The notes under the pieces were generated by a model, which was given only the letters and a program-made list of their open reading frames with translations, ran no database searches and was not told the DNA's origin. Below are positions 2,660 through 41,890 of a stretch of 44,033 nt of DNA, in pieces. Origin of the DNA: a virus. The stretch is from the IMG/VR virus record IMGVR_UViG_3300025112_003060, positions 1-44,033 of that record; one strand, given 5' to 3'. Positions within the stretch are counted from its first letter, which is position 1. The number at the start of each line of letters is the position of its first letter. The translations under genes were made by a program, and so were the position numbers.

Positions 2660-4888
2660 ATGGTCAATTATGTTAGCCCTGGTGTTTACACCATTGAAAA
2701 AGATATTTCAGATTACGCCCCGTCAATCAATACTTCTATTGTTGGAGTAGTTGGTTTTGCTTCTAAAGGTCCGACTAATAAGGCTACCTTAATTACTAGT
2801 CAAAATAACCTTCTTAGAACATTTGGTGAACCCGCCGAGGCTATAACTGGTCAAGGAATTGAAGGTTCCCTTGAAATTTTAGAACAAACTAATAGTCTGT
2901 ACTATGTAAGGGCTGCTACTAGTGATGCTGCTGATGCATCTGCTATTATGGGACTCGGTTCTTGTCCTGCTGTTTTAGTATCGGGTGTAGATACTTTTGC
3001 TACGGGAGAAGGCTTTGGTGTGTTGAGTGCCCTTACTTTGAGAATTCAAGTGTATGATAACGCTGGGGTGGCTCAATTTACTGACAATTCTAGTGCAGGT
3101 AAGGACTTTGTTATTCCAGCAGGAACTGCTACTAGCCAAGGTGAAGCCATCAGAAAGGTTGTTGGTGGAGGCTTAGATGCTGATAAGATTGGGTGCTTCT
3201 TTGATGGAGCAAGAACTGCTGACACTGATGCTACAAATCTTGCTTTGTCGGGTGCCATTGTTGGAAGTTTCGCAGGATCAGGTGCTTCGATTGGCGTGTC
3301 TGCTGTTAGCTCAACTACTGCAACAGGAACTAGTTTCCCAGGAACCGCTGGTGTTTCTGCTTTAAGAGCAACAGCTGCTGCTAGTGGAGCGACTGCTTAT
3401 GGTGCTTCTGGAAACTATGCTTCTGCTGTAAGAGTTTATGGGGGCAGTGTACTGACTACAGGAACTAAATCTGCTGCATATAAAATTGAGTCTCTGTATC
3501 CAGGTGCGGGATATAATGGGGGTACAAGAACTGATGGAAATGCTAGTGGTAATAGTATTACTGTTAATGATTTAGGTTCACAAAACTTTGATGTAATTGT
3601 TAATGAAAATGGTGTGGGTGATGAAACCTTCAAGTGTAGTTTCGTTGGGTCTGGTTCCTTTATTGAGGATGTTATTAATACTGGTGAAACAAATACTACT
3701 TCTGATACTATCAAAGGTAACTTGGTTAAAGATGATGCAGACGCTACGGCAGCAAAGCTAACAGACTACACGGGCCTTTTAGGCACTCTAATGGGTACGA
3801 CTCTTTTCCAAATAGATTATCAATGGTTAGATCCTTTTGCTAATCCTACTGGAACAGGGACTGCTGAGGCGCTGTCCGAAAACTCAGATAATGCTTCTAG
3901 ATTCAACAAGCTTGTTGCTTCTACAAATACTAATATGGCTGGTGGAGACAATGGTGATGGTGCAAGTGATGCTGATGCTGCGGCCACTGCTTTGATTGGA
4001 AATGCCTCAGTTGAGCCTAAGACTGGGATGCAGTCTCTAGATGAGCAGGTACTGAATATAGGAATTGCTTTAGTTCCTGGAGTTGCTAACCAATCTGTTC
4101 AAAATAATTTAATCACTCTTGCTGAAACTACTCAAAACTTCTTAGCTCTTGTGGCTCCCCCTTATGCAATTGGAACTGTGCAGGATGCTATTGATTGGAG
4201 TAACGGCAAGTCTTCTAGCACTGCTGGGTCTCGGACTGCTTCGATTAATAGTTCTTACGCTGCTGTCTACTGGCCTTGGGTTAAAGTATTCAGTGTCTTT
4301 GATAGCAAGGATCGTTGGCTAGATCCTACAATCTATGGTGCGCGGCAAATGGCCTTCACTGATGCTGTGGCTGATAGTTGGTACGCTCCTGCTGGATATC
4401 GCAGAGGTAGGCTCACAAAGCCTACGGAAGTAGAAGTCAAACTGAACCAAGGTGATAGAGACAGTCTTTACAGTGGTGGAAATGTTGTTAACCCAATTGT
4501 TTCCTTCCCACAGCAAGGCATCACGATCTTCGGTCAACGAACTACTCAACGCAGTCCCACAGCCCTAGATAGAATTAATATTCGTAGACTCATGATTTAC
4601 ATTCGCAAGGTTATTCTCCTTGCAACTCAACGATTTGTCTTCGAACCAAATGATGAGTTCACTTGGGCACAAATTGAAGGTGTTCTTAATCCCTTCCTCG
4701 ATGATATTCGTAGAAGAAGAGGAATCACTGAGTTCCGCGTTGTGTGTGACGAAACTGTAAATACTCCTCTGAGAATTGACCGTAACGAACTCTGGACTAA
4801 GGTTCTCATTAAACCTACTAAGACGGCAGAGATCCTCATTTTTGAAATTAACCTGACCAATCAATCGGCTCAGTTAGGGAGCTTATAA
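2660..4888 (+). CDS. contractile tail sheath protein, T4 gp18-like
   Basis: 742 aa. Sheath subunits surround the tail tube and contract on infection. The N terminus 'YVSPGVYTIEKDIS' followed by 'TSIVGVVGFASKGPTNKAT' is the standard start of phage sheath proteins. The C-terminal domain 'RRLMIYIRKVILLATQRFVF' with 'PFLDDIRRRRGITEFRVVCD' and 'RIDRNELWTKVLIKPTKTAE' is the conserved core-forming part. The middle (about residues 90-450) is Ala/Gly/Ser/Thr-rich and probably carries surface-exposed inserts, making it longer than T4 gp18 (659 aa). RBS TAGGAGAT is well placed. Directly followed by the tube gene, so the pair is very likely co-transcribed. Confidence 0.95.
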   Translation: MVNYVSPGVYTIEKDISDYAPSINTSIVGVVGFASKGPTNKATLITSQNNLLRTFGEPAEAITGQGIEGSLEILEQTNSLYYVRAATSDAADASAIMGLGSCPAVLVSGVDTFATGEGFGVLSALTLRIQVYDNAGVAQFTDNSSAGKDFVIPAGTATSQGEAIRKVVGGGLDADKIGCFFDGARTADTDATNLALSGAIVGSFAGSGASIGVSAVSSTTATGTSFPGTAGVSALRATAAASGATAYGASGNYASAVRVYGGSVLTTGTKSAAYKIESLYPGAGYNGGTRTDGNASGNSITVNDLGSQNFDVIVNENGVGDETFKCSFVGSGSFIEDVINTGETNTTSDTIKGNLVKDDADATAAKLTDYTGLLGTLMGTTLFQIDYQWLDPFANPTGTGTAEALSENSDNASRFNKLVASTNTNMAGGDNGDGASDADAAATALIGNASVEPKTGMQSLDEQVLNIGIALVPGVANQSVQNNLITLAETTQNFLALVAPPYAIGTVQDAIDWSNGKSSSTAGSRTASINSSYAAVYWPWVKVFSVFDSKDRWLDPTIYGARQMAFTDAVADSWYAPAGYRRGRLTKPTEVEVKLNQGDRDSLYSGGNVVNPIVSFPQQGITIFGQRTTQRSPTALDRINIRRLMIYIRKVILLATQRFVFEPNDEFTWAQIEGVLNPFLDDIRRRRGITEFRVVCDETVNTPLRIDRNELWTKVLIKPTKTAEILIFEINLTNQSAQLGSL

Positions 4889-4899
4889 GGAACTAATAA

Positions 4900-5496
4900 A
4901 TGGCAAAATCTTATTACAAGGAACGATACGGAAGAACTTTTACCCCAGGTAAAGGTCTTCCTACAATCTCTACTGAATTAGATTCAGTACGAGCATATCA
5001 ATTTGAAATTCATTTCTTCGGACTTCCCGCAGATGTTTCGAATCAGTCTGATCTCACTCTAGCTGCTAAAAAAGTTACGGGTATAGAGATGAAGAATGAA
5101 GCTATCGTTATTGATAGAGTTAACGATAAGGTTTTCTATCCTGGTAAGACTACTCCTGGTGAACTTAGTGTGGACTTTGATAACCTGTATCTCAGAGAAT
5201 CTGCTTCTGATCTGTATCGCTACTTCCGTCATACCTATGATCCTCTTACTGGAGAAATGACGAAGAGCGCACAGCCTGGAGGTGGTGCTGGTAAAACTTT
5301 TAAAGCTGAAAGAGTAGAGGTGATTATGCTGGATAACTCTCTGGAACCACACTCGACGGTTGAGCTTTATGGAGTATACCCAACCTCATGGTCTGCTGCT
5401 GAGTTTAATTATTCAACAAATCAGTTTCATCAACTGACTGTGAACTTCAAGTATGATTTCATGAATGTATATAACTACGCTAACCCAACTACTTAA
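4900..5496 (+). CDS. tail tube protein, T4 gp19-like
   Basis: 198 aa. Forms the hexameric-ring inner tube through which DNA passes. Features fitting the family are the N-terminal 'RAYQFEIHFFGLP', 'KKVTGIEMKNEAIVIDRVND', 'FYPGKTTPGELSVDFDNLY', and a C-terminal 'VELYGVYPTSWSAAEFNYST' followed by 'HQLTVNFKYDFMNV'. Length equals that usual for gp19-type tubes. It is 11 nt after the sheath gene with RBS AAGGA, and the operon ends in the terminator at 5520-5559. Confidence 0.92.
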   Translation: MAKSYYKERYGRTFTPGKGLPTISTELDSVRAYQFEIHFFGLPADVSNQSDLTLAAKKVTGIEMKNEAIVIDRVNDKVFYPGKTTPGELSVDFDNLYLRESASDLYRYFRHTYDPLTGEMTKSAQPGGGAGKTFKAERVEVIMLDNSLEPHSTVELYGVYPTSWSAAEFNYSTNQFHQLTVNFKYDFMNVYNYANPTT

Positions 5497-5577: not shown

Positions 5578-8427
5578 ATGGACTACTTTTTAGAATTATT
5601 GAAAAGCTACGACAAACTTAAGAAGAGAAAGTTTAAGCTTACTTATATTACGGAAGCGCAAGATAAGAAAAAGAAACCTGATAATGGAAAATCTACTCAG
5701 GAGGATATGGATGCTCAAAATAACAAAAATGCAGAAGCACTAGCATTAGAGGTTGTAAAGGCAGGGCCTCAGCAGCCTTTTAATGATGAATATAAAAGAG
5801 GAGGACAACCCCCCTACGCTTATTTTTCTAAGACGAAACAAGAAGTTCAATTGATGGGTGGCCCAATGGGGTCTCGCGCAGGAAGGGTTGCAGATGCAGC
5901 CGGAAATCCTGATGTATCCTCTGATGCATGGAAAAAATTAGTTAATTTTTTTAAAGATGGAAAAGATGATGAGTTACTTAGACAACAAGAGGATGAAATA
6001 CTCTTACAGCAGAGATTAGATACTTTAGGTTCTTTAGTAGAGAGTGATCCTGAAAGATTTCCTGAATTAGCTCAAGATATTGTAGCATTAGAAAAGGAAA
6101 ATAATCAACAAATAGATGAGTTATGCCGTAAGCAGGTACTACCAATCCATATTTGTAAAGGAGATCTTAATACACTTCAATATATTGGAGGTTCCAATGC
6201 TAAAAGTTTAGAATCAAAACTGTTTAATGGAACAGGCTTTATTGGTTTTGATGAAAATGGCAAGATGGTAAGAGAACAAATTGGAGAGGGTGTATTTGCT
6301 GATACCTTTCAAACTAATTTACAACTATTAGAGTTACTGGAGAAAGGAAAGCCTGATTGTGATCAAGTAAATAAGAGAATGGGATTAGTTGGTAAAGGTA
6401 AAGTAGTTCTTTTTACTGATCCTGATGGTCAGGCGGGTCCTATGGAGTTGGGTGAGGGGGGTGTTGTTGTGGATAAGGGGGGTCTTCACCAAACTATGAT
6501 CGACATCTTCACTAAGTCTGGGTGTACTATTGAATCCTACGAATTTAAGGGATCAACGAATTCATTAAATGAGACTAAGGGACGCTTTAATGAACACTTT
6601 ATGGGATTAATAACCCGTGTATACTCAGCGGTTCGTGGGAATCCAGGTGCTACTCCTAAAGAGAAATCCCATCTCTTAAAACCTATACTTGATGGGTTTG
6701 AACAGGATATGAAAAGCACTCTCGCCTCTCTACAAGAGTTTGCAGGACAAACTCCTATGGCCGACCAAGCTATTGTGCTTGAATCATATCCTTTGATGGA
6801 AGAAATTCATAGTGAGCTTCAGTCCTTAACGGAAAAGGAAGGAGTTAAAAACCTAATAAGTCAAATGTATGTGCAGATGGGGGGGTTACTAAAAGAGCTT
6901 CAAGCAGATAATATTATTGCAGGGGGAACAGCGCAAAGGCTAGGAGGTAAAGTAGATAACTTCTTTGTGTATACAGGAGATGATGGGTTAGCTAGAGCCC
7001 AACAGAACGCTGGCTCCCTTGGACTACTTCCTGAAGATGTTGTTACGAGAACTCCTGCTGAATTATATAACAATGCAACAGAAGCACTAAAGCCTGAAAT
7101 TGAAAAAACATTAACTAGACAAGGCTTCCCTGCCGATACATGGGAAGAGGTTATTCCTAACCCTGATTTGGAAGAATTTATTCCTAACCCTAAGTATAAG
7201 GAAGGTTCTGATGCTGATGAAGAAATTCCTAATCCTAAGTACAATCCAGATGCGCCAGAAACTCTTCCAAATCCTAACTACACCCCAGTAGAATTACATC
7301 TCTTGAGTGCAGGAAATAAATTATCGGTAGGAAATCAAATCAAGTTTGGGGATCTTTCCCTTAATAGAGCTATTGAGATAGCTATGGGGAATCCAATTAC
7401 TGGTAGCTCTCCTCCTGAGAACGAAGATGCATGGTACTCCAAGCTTGATGAGTCTTTAGGATTTACTGCCGCAGAAACAGGGAGGATTTCTAACCCTGTT
7501 CTGGAACAACCTGAAACTATTCCTAATCCAGATGCGCCAGAAGAGGTTATTCCTAATCCTGACTATGATCCAACGGCTCCAGCAACAGTAAGAGGTGAAG
7601 AGGGTGGTTCACTTGCCACATATTTTGGGTCTATACAAAAGATGTATAAAGCTTGTGATACTATCTCTCAACAAGCACAGTATACAGGTACTGATGGACA
7701 GATTACACTTACTAATCCTTCTCAGGTTGCACTACAACTTCAAAGTGTAGCATTAGGTAATTTTGAGTATGGGGGTGAAGGTTCTAATTTTTATAATGCT
7801 TGTACAAGAGAAATTCCTAATCCTCATGGAGATGATCCTAAAACTATAAGAGAAAGAAAGCTTCTGGACGGTGATACACCTGAAGCAAAAGGAAATAGAA
7901 AGAAGGCTAGTGAAGCTTTAAAACGAGATTATTTATCTTATCGTTTGAGAACAGATTACATGGGTAATGATCCTGTCAAAAGAGCAGGAGCTACTAACGC
8001 TCTTTGTCGTATGGCTGGTGCTACCATCATGGAGATGTCCGAAATGGGACAGATAGTAACCGAAGAGGCTGTGGGTGCTGAACCCCTTGTTATAAATCAA
8101 AATGATATTCTTCGTGGTCTAGGGAAAGCAAGAAAATCTAAGGATCTCCTCATTGAATTTGAGGGTAGCACTCAGCACCTTACCTTTAAAGTGAAGGGAC
8201 AAGATGGGAAGACGCACGAAATTACTTATTCAACTAACTTAGAGAGGCAAAAAGATAGACCCGCTATGACAGGACATATCAAAAAAGAAGCTGCTGCCAA
8301 AGTTGGTAGAAGAATTGATCCTCTCCAGCCCAGAGTTAAAGAAGATACTCTCTATCAATTCCTTCAAGGCCAGATGAGTCTCTTAGAGAAAATTCTCAAT
8401 CAACCCAAGCGTAGTCAGGTTCTTTAA
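5578..8427 (+). CDS. large unrecognised protein with IPNP motifs (possible virion protein)
   Basis: 949 aa, function unknown. The N terminus is basic ('KSYDKLKKRKFKLTYITEA') followed by a charged, Asn/Gln/Lys-rich linker, which could be a packaging or processing leader (inference). Most of the chain is helical and acidic. Residues about 525-575 and 645-675 carry a proline-rich repeat of the form E-x-I/L-PNP-x-Y: EVIPNPDL, EFIPNPKY, EEIPNPKY, ETLPNPNY, ETIPNPDA, EVIPNPDY, with a last EIPNPHG near 746. No enzyme motif is obvious. It is isolated between a terminator and convergent genes, has its own promoter, and its 3' end overlaps the antisense nuclease gene by 32 nt. Candidate roles are an internal head protein or a large structural protein. 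Confidence 0.85.
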   Translation: MDYFLELLKSYDKLKKRKFKLTYITEAQDKKKKPDNGKSTQEDMDAQNNKNAEALALEVVKAGPQQPFNDEYKRGGQPPYAYFSKTKQEVQLMGGPMGSRAGRVADAAGNPDVSSDAWKKLVNFFKDGKDDELLRQQEDEILLQQRLDTLGSLVESDPERFPELAQDIVALEKENNQQIDELCRKQVLPIHICKGDLNTLQYIGGSNAKSLESKLFNGTGFIGFDENGKMVREQIGEGVFADTFQTNLQLLELLEKGKPDCDQVNKRMGLVGKGKVVLFTDPDGQAGPMELGEGGVVVDKGGLHQTMIDIFTKSGCTIESYEFKGSTNSLNETKGRFNEHFMGLITRVYSAVRGNPGATPKEKSHLLKPILDGFEQDMKSTLASLQEFAGQTPMADQAIVLESYPLMEEIHSELQSLTEKEGVKNLISQMYVQMGGLLKELQADNIIAGGTAQRLGGKVDNFFVYTGDDGLARAQQNAGSLGLLPEDVVTRTPAELYNNATEALKPEIEKTLTRQGFPADTWEEVIPNPDLEEFIPNPKYKEGSDADEEIPNPKYNPDAPETLPNPNYTPVELHLLSAGNKLSVGNQIKFGDLSLNRAIEIAMGNPITGSSPPENEDAWYSKLDESLGFTAAETGRISNPVLEQPETIPNPDAPEEVIPNPDYDPTAPATVRGEEGGSLATYFGSIQKMYKACDTISQQAQYTGTDGQITLTNPSQVALQLQSVALGNFEYGGEGSNFYNACTREIPNPHGDDPKTIRERKLLDGDTPEAKGNRKKASEALKRDYLSYRLRTDYMGNDPVKRAGATNALCRMAGATIMEMSEMGQIVTEEAVGAEPLVINQNDILRGLGKARKSKDLLIEFEGSTQHLTFKVKGQDGKTHEITYSTNLERQKDRPAMTGHIKKEAAAKVGRRIDPLQPRVKEDTLYQFLQGQMSLLEKILNQPKRSQVL

Positions 8428-9383: not shown

Positions 9384-9703
9384 TGTACCAATTAAGGTTC
9401 CTTAAAAAGGAAAACGATTTAAATAAACTTATTAAATCGAATAAGAAAACTAAACAACCCATTAATATTTTATTTGTGTCTCTTTGGGATAAGTTTTCTG
9501 AGTCGTTGGTATCTAAACTCAAAACTAAATATGGGGGGTCCGAGACCGGACTACCACTATATATTGTGGATAGCTTTCATATGCCACATAGTTTTGTTAT
9601 TTATAACACTACCAAGTTGCCTCACTTAGTAAAGTATTCCCGTAAGGGAGTACAGTCTGAGGATTATCTTCCGATGATCATGAAAACCTTAAAGGTTATA
9701 TAA
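9380..9703 (+). CDS. thioredoxin-fold-like protein without CXXC
   Basis: 107 aa. After a basic N terminus comes 'INILFVSLWDKFSESLVSKL', a long helix, 'LPLYIVDSFHMPHSFVIYNT' and a final 'LPMIMKTL' helix. The order strand-helix-strand with a Met-Pro before the next strand is like thioredoxin folds, where a cis-proline sits at this place. The CXXC pair is absent, so any redox role is unlikely. This is a weak structural guess. The start may be ATG 9380 or ATG 9383. The 3' end overlaps the antisense sigma gene by 8 nt. Confidence 0.55.
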   Translation: MMYQLRFLKKENDLNKLIKSNKKTKQPINILFVSLWDKFSESLVSKLKTKYGGSETGLPLYIVDSFHMPHSFVIYNTTKLPHLVKYSRKGVQSEDYLPMIMKTLKVI

Positions 9704-10037
9704 AATCATCCTTTTTTCTCTCAATATAATTTTCAATCTTCTTGTTGTACTTTTTCTCTCTAGTATAGAGAAGCTTTAGGTTGTTAACAATAATGGTTGT
9801 AAAATAATTGAAGGCAGTTCCTTTGCGTGGTTTAAAATTCTTAACGGTCTTAAGGACTAGAGTAAAACATTCTTGACGCGCATCATCAGGGTTCACCTTG
9901 AAGCGAAAGGAACCTATGATGTTGCTTATTAAAAGGTCGAATAAAGAAACCAGATCATCCTCGTAAGTTTTCGGATCTTCCTGGTATAATAGGATGATTT
10001 CTTCGAACCTTTTGTTGTCAATATAGTGATTTTTCAT
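9696..10037 (-). CDS. RNA polymerase sigma factor, T4 gp55-like (late transcription)
   Basis: 113 aa. The segment from 'EDDLVSLFDLLISNIIGSF' through 'DDARQECFTLVLKTVKNFKP' and 'GTAFNYFTTIIVNNLKLLYT', then 'REKKYNKKI', matches sigma70 region 2: core-binding helix followed by the aromatic-rich -10-recognition helix, the part kept in the small phage sigma gp55. T4 gp55 (185 aa) reads a -10-like TATAAATA box with no -35, and this protein is shorter still, with no region 4. That fits the TATAATA boxes lacking -35 found at several genes here. Its own promoter (GCTATAATAAAG on the minus strand) ends 5 nt before the ATG. Converges with 9380-9703 (8-nt overlap). Confidence 0.8.
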   Translation of the reverse strand: MKNHYIDNKRFEEIILLYQEDPKTYEDDLVSLFDLLISNIIGSFRFKVNPDDARQECFTLVLKTVKNFKPRKGTAFNYFTTIIVNNLKLLYTREKKYNKKIENYIERKKDDFI

Positions 10038-10041
10038 ACTT

Positions 10042-10048
10042 TATTATA
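10042..10048. promoter_or_regulatory. shared divergent promoter of sigma and polymerase genes
   Basis: Only 14 bp separate the two start codons. Minus strand reads GCTATAATAAAGTATG (box 5 nt before sigma ATG at 10037); plus strand reads CTTTATTATAGCCATG (TATTAT 4 nt before ATG 10052). Neither start has a Shine-Dalgarno. Confidence 0.6.
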
Positions 10049-10051
10049 GCC

Positions 10052-11074
10052 ATGTTTGATTTAGCAAAACTTTACGAGGGTCATAAAACCCTTGGAGATA
10101 ACACTTTGTGTGCTGGGTGTTCCATTTTAGAGAAAAATAAACCGTGTCATTCGGTTATGGACCATGAGGATTTAAAAGAATCTCCCGTACTTTTCTTATC
10201 AGACTCTCTTAGGTACAAGCTTGGGTCTATTACTGCGTTCTCCTCCGCTGAATTTAATCTAATTCGTGAAATTTATAAAGAGAGTTTAGCATTAGCTGCT
10301 TCTGTTAAATGTCCTTCAGTGAGAGATGCAGATATGAGTCCTGTCAATTTGGGTTTGTGTCGCATTCATATGGAGGCTACCATAGATAAGGTAAAGCCTA
10401 AACTCATCTTCGCTTGCGGAAACCTTTCTATGAAGATGCTTATTAAGAAGAGTGGTATAACAAATAAGAGGGGGAAGTCTTACGAATTTAGTACGGCTTT
10501 AGGTCATAAATGTGTGGTTGTTCCCATCTTTCATCCTTACTCTTGTATTAAGGAGCCTCGTCACATTCCGTTGTTCCGTAAGGACATACAGAATGCGTAT
10601 GAAAAATACATTTTAGGAAGAAAGAGTGAGGGGGACTTTTCTTATAAAGTTATCACTACAATTCAAGCTGTTAAAGACTTGGCGCAAAGTTTGAAAGACA
10701 CAAACACAACTGTTGCTGTTGATACGGAGACAACAGGACTGAACTTCCTAACGGATAACATCATGACCATTTCTCTTACTACGAGAGATAATACTTGGGT
10801 CATCCCACTCGATCATAAGGATAGTCCTTTCAAGAAGGGGGAACCTCATTATGCTAGTGTTTGGGTGGCGTTACGCCAAATCTTAGAAAACCCTAAGAAC
10901 AAGAAGGTATTTCATAATGCTAAGTTTGACCTTAAGTTCCTAATTAACTACGGAATCTATACTAAGAATGTGTGGGACACTAAGATCATGCATCACTTAT
11001 TGGATGAGAATATGCCCAAGAGTTTGATGGATCTTACTAAATTATATTTCGCTAACGAGTTGGAGGATCTTTAG
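10052..11074 (+). CDS. DNA polymerase I fragment 1: UDG4-like domain fused to 3'-5' exonuclease Exo I/II
   Basis: 340 aa, first of three pieces of a family A polymerase. Residues 15-190 look like a family 4 uracil-DNA glycosylase: Cys20-x2-Cys23 and Cys87-x15-Cys103 have the spacing of the Fe-S ligands, then 'KPKLIFACG', 'KRG' and 'PIFHPYSC'. The catalytic GEAPG-type motif is missing (FLSDSLRYK stands there), so glycosylase activity is doubtful. Residues 195-340 are a DnaQ-type proofreading exonuclease with Exo I 'VAVDTETTGL' (Asp224, Glu226) and Exo II 'VFHNAKFDLKFL' (Asn289, Asp293). The Exo III part lies beyond the antisense insertion, in the next fragment. Leaderless-type start. The stop overlaps the antisense gene's stop. 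Confidence 0.85.
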   Translation: MFDLAKLYEGHKTLGDNTLCAGCSILEKNKPCHSVMDHEDLKESPVLFLSDSLRYKLGSITAFSSAEFNLIREIYKESLALAASVKCPSVRDADMSPVNLGLCRIHMEATIDKVKPKLIFACGNLSMKMLIKKSGITNKRGKSYEFSTALGHKCVVVPIFHPYSCIKEPRHIPLFRKDIQNAYEKYILGRKSEGDFSYKVITTIQAVKDLAQSLKDTNTTVAVDTETTGLNFLTDNIMTISLTTRDNTWVIPLDHKDSPFKKGEPHYASVWVALRQILENPKNKKVFHNAKFDLKFLINYGIYTKNVWDTKIMHHLLDENMPKSLMDLTKLYFANELEDL

Positions 11075-11694
11075 AACCCCTCTCCTCCCAGCCATTCCTG
11101 CGCTTCTGCCGCTTTTGCTGCCATTTCTGCTCTTCTGGCTTTGCTGGCTTTGCTGGCTGCTGTTCTTTGTGTACCTGCTTTTTTCTCTTCTGCCGCTTTT
11201 GCTGCTATGTTTGCTCTTCTGGCTTCGTGATGATCCCCTTTTTTCATTGACTTTTTGTATTGAAAGATAGATTGTTTTGGTGGGTCTGGGTTTGTATGAA
11301 GGATAGATTTGTTTGCTGTTCTTTGTGTACCTGCTTCTTTTCTACCTTTAGGCCCCCGTTTTCTATCTTCTTTAGCCCTAATAGCTTTAGGGGTATGTCT
11401 TTTCAAACCTTCCAGAGCCTTGGCACCTCCAAAACCTTTTACTTCAGCTATAAGAGCGCCCATACTTCTATAAGTATTCCAAATTGATTCCCCAACTTGG
11501 TTTGCTATTTGTTCCTCCACTTTCTCCTCTTCCTTCTCTTTCTTCCCTTTTCTGTCCTTCAGGGCTTTTTGTAGTTTGTGTCCAGCAGTCATTCCCGCAA
11601 GTGCCCCTACCGGCCCTCCAGCCACCGCACCTCCTACACCTCCACCCACTACGGCTCCCAGCACCCCTTCATTAATTTCTTTGTAATTTTTCAT
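11071..11694 (-). CDS. glycine-zipper / Ala-Lys-rich protein inserted antisense in the polymerase gene
   Basis: 207 aa, not recognised. Residues 10-37 are a glycine-zipper-like hydrophobic stretch ('GVLGAVVGGGVGGAVAGG', 'GALAGMTAG') able to insert in or cross a membrane. Then comes a Lys/Glu helical segment and a basic C-terminal half with repeats: AGTQRTA occurs twice and ARRA-x-x-AAKAAE twice. A leader with AGAGGGG gives it a normal RBS, unlike its neighbours. It lies between polymerase fragments 1 and 2 on the opposite strand, its stop overlapping the stop of fragment 1 (TTAG). Composition recalls the protein at the left edge of the window, so a virion/ejection-type protein is possible (inference). 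Confidence 0.75.
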   Translation of the reverse strand: MKNYKEINEGVLGAVVGGGVGGAVAGGPVGALAGMTAGHKLQKALKDRKGKKEKEEEKVEEQIANQVGESIWNTYRSMGALIAEVKGFGGAKALEGLKRHTPKAIRAKEDRKRGPKGRKEAGTQRTANKSILHTNPDPPKQSIFQYKKSMKKGDHHEARRANIAAKAAEEKKAGTQRTAASKASKARRAEMAAKAAEAQEWLGGEGF

Positions 11695-11715
11695 AAGTAA
11701 GACCCCTCTAAGCTC

Positions 11716-11722
11716 TATTATA
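11716..11722. promoter_or_regulatory. divergent TATTATA/TATAATA box before polymerase fragment 2
   Basis: CTATTATATAG (11715-11725) is near-palindromic. On plus, TATTAT ends 6 nt before ATG 11728 without a Shine-Dalgarno; on minus it reads CTATATAATAG and gives a leader of about 15 nt with AGAGGGG for the antisense gene. Confidence 0.55.
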
Positions 11723-11727
11723 TAGTC

Positions 11728-12207
11728 ATGTTAACTATAGACAACCCAAAAAAATTTGATTGGGCGAACATGGATCTATCCGACTGTTGCGAGGGCAACG
11801 CGATGGATACTTACTTTACCCTTAAGCTTTTTGATCTTATCATGGAAAAGCTGGGGGAAGAACCTGTCATGAAACTCATTGAGAATATTGTGATGCCTTC
11901 TCTTGAAACTTTCGCAGAGATGGAGTATAATGGGTTGGATGTGGATCTTGATACATTAGGTTGCGTAGGCAATCAACTGCGGTCTACTAATATGGATGAA
12001 GAAGATTTCCTTTATAGTTGTAGGGGGGTTATTAAGACCGATAATCTTTCTTCTAATAATGATCTAATTGAGATTCTTTATACCCGAGACGGCGGTGTAG
12101 GATTATACCCTCCTGATAAAACTGCAAAAGGCAAACCTTCTGTGTCTGCTCCTACTCTTAAACTTCTCCTTCAACATATTGATGAGGAGCTAGAGAGGCG
12201 TGGGTAG
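11728..12207 (+). CDS. DNA polymerase I fragment 2: Exo III and linker
   Basis: 159 aa. It continues the exonuclease domain of 10052-11074: 'NPKKFDWANMDLSDCC', 'GNAMDTYFTLKLFDLIMEKL' holds the Exo III Asp (Asp27), although the usual Tyr four residues before it is not there. It then goes on through the 'VMPSLETFAEMEYNGLDVD' helix that joins exonuclease and polymerase domains in Pol I proteins, to 'PSVSAPTLKLLLQHI'. It stops at 12207, and the rest of the protein continues in another frame from 12200. A split of this kind in two or three separate chains would need reassembly in trans, or a frameshift at the 3' junction. Confidence 0.85.
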   Translation: MLTIDNPKKFDWANMDLSDCCEGNAMDTYFTLKLFDLIMEKLGEEPVMKLIENIVMPSLETFAEMEYNGLDVDLDTLGCVGNQLRSTNMDEEDFLYSCRGVIKTDNLSSNNDLIEILYTRDGGVGLYPPDKTAKGKPSVSAPTLKLLLQHIDEELERRG

Positions 12208-13285
12208 GTGGCAATATCGAGATGAGGGGAAGCGTATCAGCAAGTCTGTTGTAGCAGACAAAACTAAGGAAGAATTAGTAGAGGCTAAGAAATTCCTGAA
12301 GGGGTTACTGGATCTTCGTAAGTCTGAGAAGCTAACCAAGACTTATATTGAGGGTACTAAGAATGCTATAGCGTATAATGAGAAGAATAAAGTCTTTGTG
12401 GATTTCCGCTTTGATGGCACCGCAACGGGAAGGCTCTCTTGCGCTGCGTACACCGCTCAGAAATCCATGGGAGTATCTTTCCATACCTTACCCCGTGAAA
12501 CAAAAAACAACATCAGAAGCCTTTTCAAAGCTCCTGGTGACTGGGCATTTATTGCTGCTGATTATGCGGCTATGGAGTTGCGAGTCTTGTCTCACATAGC
12601 GAAGGAGGGTAATATGCAGACTGCCTTTAACCAGGGTGCAGACCTACATACTTATACTGCAAAGCTTCTGTTTAATAAGGATAGAATTACTAAGCAAGAA
12701 CGACAAATCGCTAAGACTGTATCATTTCTTATTGTATATGGAGGAGGAGCTTTCAATTTAAGTGAGACTGTGGGCATTCCTATTAAACGAGCGGAGAAAA
12801 TTATTAAGGACTACGAGAATGTATATCCTGGGATTTTTGAGTACATGGAGTTTGTTAATAATTTCATTAAAGCCAATGGATATGCATACACTATCTTTGG
12901 GAGGAAACGGAACCTTCCTGATGTGTATAGTCGTGAACGATCAGTAGTTAATCGAGCGTTGCGCCAGGGGTTGAACTTTACTATCCAAAGTGCTGCCTCA
13001 GATATTCTTTTATCTTCTCTGTTGGGAGCTTCTCGGAGATTTAAAGAAGCAAATCTCCAAGCTCGACCTGTGGCTACGGTGCATGATTCTATTGAGATTG
13101 TGTGTCCACAAGAAGAGGTGAAGGAGGCTCTCACTCTTCTCTACGATGAAATGGTTAACTATCCTACGATCAAGAACATTTTTAATATTAAATTTGATAT
13201 TCCCCTCGCTATTGATGCAGAGGTGGGGAACTCTTTCGGGGATGGAAAAGTTGTTGAGTTTTCTGGAGGAGTTCCTGTACTATGA
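12200..13285 (+). CDS. DNA polymerase I fragment 3: polymerase domain
   Basis: 361 aa, the palm, fingers and part of the thumb of a family A DNA polymerase. Motif A is 'AADYAAMELRVL' (Asp121, Glu126), the O helix is 'RQIAKTVSFLIVYGGG' (Arg168, Lys172, Phe176, Tyr180), and motif C is 'ATVHDSIEI' (His295, Asp296; the usual following Glu is Ser). 'GTATGRLS' is the conserved template-contact stretch. All catalytic Asp residues are present, so the enzyme should work if the pieces meet. The GTG start overlaps fragment 2's stop (GTGGGTAG), a +1 frame relation. The end overlaps the endonuclease VII start. Confidence 0.93.
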   Translation: MGRWQYRDEGKRISKSVVADKTKEELVEAKKFLKGLLDLRKSEKLTKTYIEGTKNAIAYNEKNKVFVDFRFDGTATGRLSCAAYTAQKSMGVSFHTLPRETKNNIRSLFKAPGDWAFIAADYAAMELRVLSHIAKEGNMQTAFNQGADLHTYTAKLLFNKDRITKQERQIAKTVSFLIVYGGGAFNLSETVGIPIKRAEKIIKDYENVYPGIFEYMEFVNNFIKANGYAYTIFGRKRNLPDVYSRERSVVNRALRQGLNFTIQSAASDILLSSLLGASRRFKEANLQARPVATVHDSIEIVCPQEEVKEALTLLYDEMVNYPTIKNIFNIKFDIPLAIDAEVGNSFGDGKVVEFSGGVPVL

Positions 13286-41813: not shown

Positions 41814-41890
41814 CGGGGTGTGGCGCAGTCTGGTAGCGCGGTGCGTTTGGGTCGCACAGGTCGCAGATTCGAATTCTGTCACCCCGACCA
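41814..41890 (+). tRNA. tRNA-Pro (anticodon TGG), CCA encoded
   Basis: A 77-nt cloverleaf: acceptor CGGGGTG pairs with CACCCCG, discriminator A and CCA are encoded. The D-arm is GCGC...GCGC, the anticodon stem GTGCG/CGCAC holds the loop TTTGGGT (anticodon TGG), and the T-arm has ATTCGAAT. It reads CCA/CCG-type Pro codons. Fully regular, hence probably functional. Confidence 0.95.

Follow-up and report, generated by a model that had tools for sequence, protein, structure and literature searches.

Several phages are known to encode a replicative polymerase in pieces. In the Aeromonas T4-like phages 25 and 44RR, the family B enzyme gp43 is encoded by two genes, 43A and 43B, whose products co-purify and are active (PMC2988022). 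The OM43 phages MEP401 and MEP402 and their group I relatives carry a family A polymerase (PolA) in two open reading frames (ORFs), for which the authors suspected an intron (PMC10580990); furthermore, the PolB of MIJ3 carries a split intein (PMC6892783), and a split Pol III is known from jumbo phages (PMC7824862). Here we describe a PolA that is encoded in three separate genes, F1, F2 and F3, in the virus record IMGVR_UViG_3300025112_003060, the full 44,033 nt of which are referred to as the window and provide the numbering used below. Split phage polymerases as such are already known; new here is a PolA that is cut twice, through the exonuclease site and through the thumb, in a state that is fixed across a group of phages, and with a cargo slot instead of a homing endonuclease at the cut. 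A three-way split PolA was not found in our literature searches of open-access papers. Divided genes for core replication enzymes are as a rule described as rare cases caused by a mobile element; here, the fission is group-wide, in phages that are diverse and widely sampled, and occurs at two defined points, one of them in the middle of a catalytic domain.

Like gp43A/43B, the locus distributes a replicative phage DNA polymerase over genes with other sequence between them, and as the gp43 chains co-purify and work together, non-covalent assembly is plausible for F1, F2 and F3 as well. The gp43 enzymes, however, belong to family B, have a single break, occur in few phages and hold a seg homing endonuclease or an untranslated spacer between their parts, whereas the present enzyme belongs to family A and has two breaks that are fixed in a diverse lineage. 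MEP401 and MEP402 are likewise marine, and their PolA is divided into two ORFs that flank a small unrelated one, an arrangement conserved in most of their relatives; in contrast to our locus, their only break lies just before motif A in the palm, where gp13 ends and gp15 starts, the exonuclease domain is intact, a domain resembling uracil-DNA glycosylase (UDG) is lacking, and the phage group is unrelated. In both sequence and fold, the annotated homologues closest to F1 are gp31 of SPO1 and the PolA of other herelleviruses, which have the same order of UDG-like, exonuclease and polymerase domains, but are the product of a single gene, in some cases with a group I intron that is spliced out, and are about 25-31% identical. 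Outside the polymerases, the split NrdA of Aeromonas phage Aeh1 offers a parallel, as a core enzyme whose gene is interrupted by a guest at a critical place and which still works as separate chains (PMC2988022); that case concerns one phage, with a homing endonuclease as the guest, whereas here the cargo genes vary and the split is present without them. In Rhodothermus phage RM378, also of the T4 superfamily, an exonuclease chain (Rm378p024) is apparently set apart from the polymerase. This exonuclease is of the family B type, with all three Exo motifs, as read by eye, in one protein, and RM378 was rejected as a relative for lack of a sequence match to F1, F2 or F3.

The three-gene split is real and not an artefact. 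Scans of viral contigs yielded 80 F1 loci and many more for F2 and F3. Counting only unique junctions, with duplicates removed, we found no fused copy among 96 F1/F2 and 93 F2/F3 junctions. As these junctions were found again in relatives whose assemblies derive from many metagenomes, a sequencing or assembly error, the caveat attached to an initial annotation of this stretch, is ruled out. F1 and F2 overlap directly in 52 of the 96 junctions, their stop and start codons sharing one base (TAATG) with no insert, and are separated by 151-2403 bp of other genes, mostly antisense, in the other 44. At the second boundary, the overlap of F2 and F3 amounts to 8 nt in 65 of the 93 junctions; most of the remainder have an overlap of another length, ATGA being one of them, and the range among relatives is 4-26 bases. 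One relative, L149, has guests at both boundaries, a 2OG-Fe(II) oxygenase-like ORF between F1 and F2 (3289-3846) and a DUF6445-like ORF between F2 and F3 (4399-5001), which are tiled as cistrons with overlapping stop and start codons. Across a tree of 67 concatenated polymerases the split state never changes, and distant scans from the most divergent family members returned further split copies only. The split is the constant state and older than the antisense gene found between F1 and F2 in the window, and the double fission is probably ancient. The initial annotation had implied that this gene broke the exonuclease domain; given the 52 junctions that are split without any insert, it did not cause the break and is instead a later, exchangeable guest.

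Re-derivation of the four ORFs at 10052-13285 placed F1, the antisense gene, F2 and F3 exactly where they had been annotated (Table 1). F1 matches Pfam DNA_pol_A_exo1 (5e-24) and gives a weak additional UDG hit, F2 matches the DNA polymerase family PHROG 17 (6e-6), and F3 matches Pfam DNA_pol_A (PF00476, 8e-76) as well as Bacillus Pol I in a PDB profile search (8e-54). Joined, the three parts amount to 860 aa and are collinear with the intact phage enzymes of a Manatee Spring myovirus (804 aa) and Lysinibacillus phage LysYB1 (891 aa), indicating that nothing essential is missing at the breaks. In profile alignments, the first break, located between Exo II and Exo III, corresponds to about residues 472-475 of Klenow, and the second falls near residues 615-624, within a family-specific thumb insertion of about 45 residues that is absent from Klenow.

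The three open frames together keep all polymerase active-site motifs. In 24-25 diverse relatives, motifs A, B and C (DYxAMELR, RQIAKxVSFLI.YGGG and VHDS), with the catalytic Asp residues expected of a family A DNA polymerase, are invariant, as are Exo I, Exo II and the Exo III Asp. The four acidic metal ligands of the DEDD exonuclease are thereby spread over two chains, with D224, E226 and D293 in F1 and D27 in F2, the latter falling on E. coli D501 in a profile alignment to Klenow. The initial annotation, which stated that all catalytic residues of the polymerase part are kept, overlooked one exception among the catalytic motifs: in each of the 24 F2 sequences, Gly replaces the Tyr (Klenow Y497) that a DEDDy exonuclease has in its Exo III motif, Y-x3-D. 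LysYB1 and Manatee Spring phage, whose enzymes are intact, retain this Tyr. In every family member this Gly, residue 23 of F2 (11794-11796), is embedded in an invariant EGNAxD.

Its further view, that the split has not led to decay, is borne out by the pattern of substitutions. Differences are concentrated at third codon positions in all three parts, and between the window and its relative L003 the ratio of nonsynonymous to synonymous substitutions (dN/dS) is about 0.05 for F1, 0.03 for F2 and 0.05 for F3, with dN of 0.07-0.14 and dS of 1.6-2.8; all three genes are under strong purifying selection. In all 15 long records of relatives (50-131 kb), a single PolA is present and PolB is absent. 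In AlphaFold2 (AF2) single-chain models, the UDG-like domain and the exonuclease core of F1 are confident, while residues 312-340 beside the break are of low confidence, as is F2 throughout, which is what such models would be expected to give for parts that require a partner.

The N-terminus of F1 (10052-10600) is a family 4 UDG-like domain fused to the exonuclease, a fold supported by Foldseek (4zby, 7e-8) and by a hidden Markov model match (4zbx, 1e-12). Its cluster-type cysteines C20, C23, C87 and C103 are invariant among relatives. The GEAPG catalytic-type motif, retained as GEAPGEQED in the Manatee Spring phage enzyme, is replaced by an LFLSDS-like sequence, and given this loss the domain is probably not an active glycosylase, but structural or DNA-binding.

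Judging from its contents, the F1/F2 boundary is a slot for exchangeable genes. Antisense inserts encode either a conserved lipoprotein-like protein of about 160 aa or basic proteins with common N-termini (GESIWNTY...LxE or MNxYDRIYxLLxE), and plus-strand inserts include ORFs of 51-62 aa and a membrane-type ORF; in three loci, a plus-strand glycosyltransferase-type gene lies next to an antisense gene. None of the inserts tested was an endonuclease gene. On the tree of 67 polymerases, insert presence changes at least 13 times, 9 of these changes being forced by well-supported branches, and insert type changes 19 times. The window and L001 have identical polymerase chains and DNA that is 99% identical on both sides of the slot, whereas their guest proteins (window 11071-11694, L001 5041-5505) show a gap of about 50 residues relative to each other, with dN of 0.10 against dS of 0.07, which suggests fast change or recombination of the guest gene. 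The lipoprotein-like gene (SSCSTIKHA...HETGGLIKTLGYWWLILFVFLPLF) occupies the slot in L011, L023, L031, L035, L049, L073 and L075 and occurs outside it in G001:C1:126824-127291, close to another gene starting MNSYERIYNLLTEA, and in G003:C1:49231-49698. Its conservation exceeds that of the polymerase in several pairs, which suggests that it has been exchanged between lineages.

The basic slot proteins have isoelectric points (pI) of 9.4-10.2, and their common N-termini end in [LIV]xE, often followed by A, G or S. The internal head proteins of T4 are likewise basic; the protease cuts off their short N-terminal capsid-targeting peptide, and they enter the host by ejection (PMC9026906); a T4-type Gp23 capsid protein and a Peptidase_S77 prohead protease are present in 14 of the 15 long records. 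Family searches gave no library match for the slot proteins as internal head proteins, and a second gene with a guest-like N-terminus was absent from the 71-kb record G004, whereas G001 has a gene of similar kind elsewhere in its genome. By analogy, the basic guests, that of the window among them, may be capsid-internal, ejected proteins, a possibility that we regard as falling just short of an even chance.

Short TATA-like boxes accompany the starts of F1 and F2. The F1 box, TAT(A/T/C)ATAG, lies 0-6 nt upstream of the start codon in essentially all relatives. In the window it is shared with a divergent gene at 9696-10037 (-), which is small and resembles sigma region 2 (Sigma70_r2, 2e-4; late sigma PHROG, 0.003). 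For F2, we scored AT[AG]TAG within 3 nt of the ATG, a configuration found at 0.25% of all ATGs. This box is present in 27 of 27 junctions with an antisense insert, but in none of the 46 others (38 overlapping, 8 with a plus-strand insert); Shine-Dalgarno (SD)-like signals before F2 show the reverse, with 0 of 27 antisense-insert as against 29 of 38 overlapping junctions. Phylogenetically independent contrasts agree with the association in 6 of 6 cases (p 0.03). The box is near-palindromic, reading TATAATAG toward the guest gene, and resembles the pseudo-symmetric bidirectional promoters described in bacteria (PMC12825309, PMC10268837). That F2 would have a promoter of its own when an antisense guest is present, as proposed in the initial annotation, is well supported by this distribution. 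With such a guest, F2 would appear to switch to a transcript of its own, probably a leaderless one, instead of being translationally coupled.

We consider it likely that the locus encodes an obligate three-chain family A polymerase that is assembled after translation, with the fission point serving as a cargo slot and the box restoring expression of F2 and F3. An ancient double fission of a UDG-exonuclease-polymerase enzyme in a T4-superfamily phage lineage would have led to F1, F2 and F3 being made as separate proteins that join non-covalently, so that the proofreading site would be formed jointly by F1 and F2, and the thumb by F2 and F3. Where no guest is present, the three genes would be translated as coupled overlapping cistrons (TAATG at the first boundary, GTG..TAG or ATGA at the second); where an antisense guest intervenes, the near-palindromic TATA-like box would restore expression of F2 and F3 and drive the guest gene in the opposite direction. 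The lack of fused copies, the low dN/dS values and the single PolA without PolB in the long records all support separate chains, as the initial annotation had suggested. The fuller picture, a T4-superfamily lineage with an obligate three-subunit PolA, an inter-subunit proofreading site and a fission point kept as a promoter-equipped slot for swapping virion-cargo genes, is more tentative, and we hold it to be somewhat less probable than its opposite.

One could imagine that the frames are joined into one polypeptide after all. The overlaps of one base at F1/F2 and of 4-26 bases at F2/F3 are geometrically compatible with programmed ribosomal frameshifting or bypassing, but the 44 F1/F2 junctions that hold other genes are not readily accommodated, nor is the entire gene between F2 and F3 in L149. 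Moreover, a conserved slippery sequence is absent, the codon before the F1 stop varies (CTC, CTT, CTG, CTA, TTC), the frame relation from F2 to F3 is +1 for overlaps of 8, 23 or 26 nt and -1 for ATGA, and start codons with SD-like signals are retained, rendering this explanation very unlikely. Removal of the insert as a remnant of an intron or intein finds precedents in the group I introns of SPO1-like phage polymerase genes, such as SPO1 gp31, and in the split intein of MIJ3; we give it practically no credence, as the window contains no Rfam match, the end of F1 and the beginning of F2 lack intein sequence, the inserts are unrelated genes of many kinds flanked by complete stop and start codons, and about half of the relatives are split without any insert.

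The loss of both the Exo III Tyr and the GEAPG motif could also be taken to mean that the pieces belong to a decaying polymerase and that another enzyme replicates the phage. Given the purifying selection on all three parts, the invariant polymerase motifs, the single PolA without PolB and the same architecture in every relative, this is highly improbable. Somewhat more serious, albeit still unlikely, is the possibility that F3, perhaps with F2, is the polymerase, and that F1 acts independently, through UDG-like binding and a partial nuclease, and never joins them: F1 does contain a complete UDG-like domain, and its boundary with F2 is the one most often parted by other genes and a promoter. 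The Exo III Asp, however, is missing from F1 and carried by F2, and both sides of the cut (DxETTGLN and FHNAKFD in F1, EGNAxD in F2) are conserved as one active site, a pattern that is difficult to account for if the two never come together. Several points also weigh against an obligate three-chain enzyme as we propose it. Its assembly and activity, a working proofreading site, the promoter and leaderless translation are inferred, and the relatives are all uncultivated contigs. With Gly at Exo III, the F1-F2 site may have a tuned or weak proofreading function; the low confidence of the F2 model may be a mere effect of the shallow alignment of 24 rows; and the case for the F2 box as a promoter is one of position and association, with no clear -35 partner found.

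If the fuller picture with a promoter-equipped cargo slot holds, splitting a core enzyme would benefit the phage by providing a safe insertion site within its replication module. The locus also represents a natural experiment on the working of an active site that spans a chain break, and its split points could be used directly in controllable DNA polymerases. An antisense guest coupled to a symmetric TATA-like box would, in addition, show how phages express a divided gene after cargo insertion.

Table 1. Coordinates of the polymerase locus in the window.
Feature	Coordinates	Strand	Description
F1	10052..11074	+	340 aa; UDG-like domain and N-terminal 3'-5' exonuclease part with Exo I and Exo II
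Guest gene in F1/F2 slot	11071..11694	-	207 aa; pI 10.1 (basic); glycine-rich N-terminus; GESIWNTY...LIAE motif
F2	11728..12207	+	159 aa; end of exonuclease domain with Exo III, first half of thumb
F3	12200..13285	+	361 aa; GTG start; second half of thumb, palm, fingers
Exo I, D224-x-E226 (F1)	10721..10729	+	Invariant in 25 sequences
Exo II, FHNAKFD, D293 (F1)	10910..10930	+	Invariant in 25 sequences
Exo III region, G23-N-A-M-D27 (F2)	11794..11808	+	E22, G23, N24, A25 and D27 invariant in 24 sequences; D27 = Klenow D501; G23 in place of Klenow Y497
F2 end/F3 GTG start overlap (8 nt)	12200..12207	+	Second fission point; -8 overlap in 65/93 unique junctions
Motif A, DYAAMELR (F3)	12560..12583	+	Invariant in relatives as DYxAMELR
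Motif B, RQIAKTVSFLIVYGGG (F3)	12701..12748	+	Phe at E. coli 762 position
Motif C, VHDS (F3)	13079..13090	+	Invariant in relatives
TATTATAG box before F1	10042..10049	+	2 nt from F1 start codon; common to divergent gene 9696-10037
TATTATATAG box before F2	11716..11725		Near-palindromic, minus strand reads CTATATAATAG; proposed shared promoter element for F2-F3 (+, leaderless) and guest gene (-)

The carriers of the split polymerase are a large and diverse group of uncultivated, mostly marine-type phages, whose capsid protein shares about 30% identity with its counterparts in cyanophages P-RSM6 and S-CAM4. Among genome contigs, just one matched the family closely, a contig of 130,604 bp (L160/L064, QCKN01000003.1) from the single-cell genome Prochlorococcus sp. 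AG-409-P03, on which we found no paper in our searches of open-access literature. The cyanophage marker psbA is absent from the 15 long records, including this Prochlorococcus single-cell relative; MazG is absent from the one record examined for it. Elsewhere in the window, an ORF of 949 aa at 5578-8427 (+) has no Pfam or PHROG match, and a tRNA-Pro (tgg) gene is located at 41814-41890 (+).

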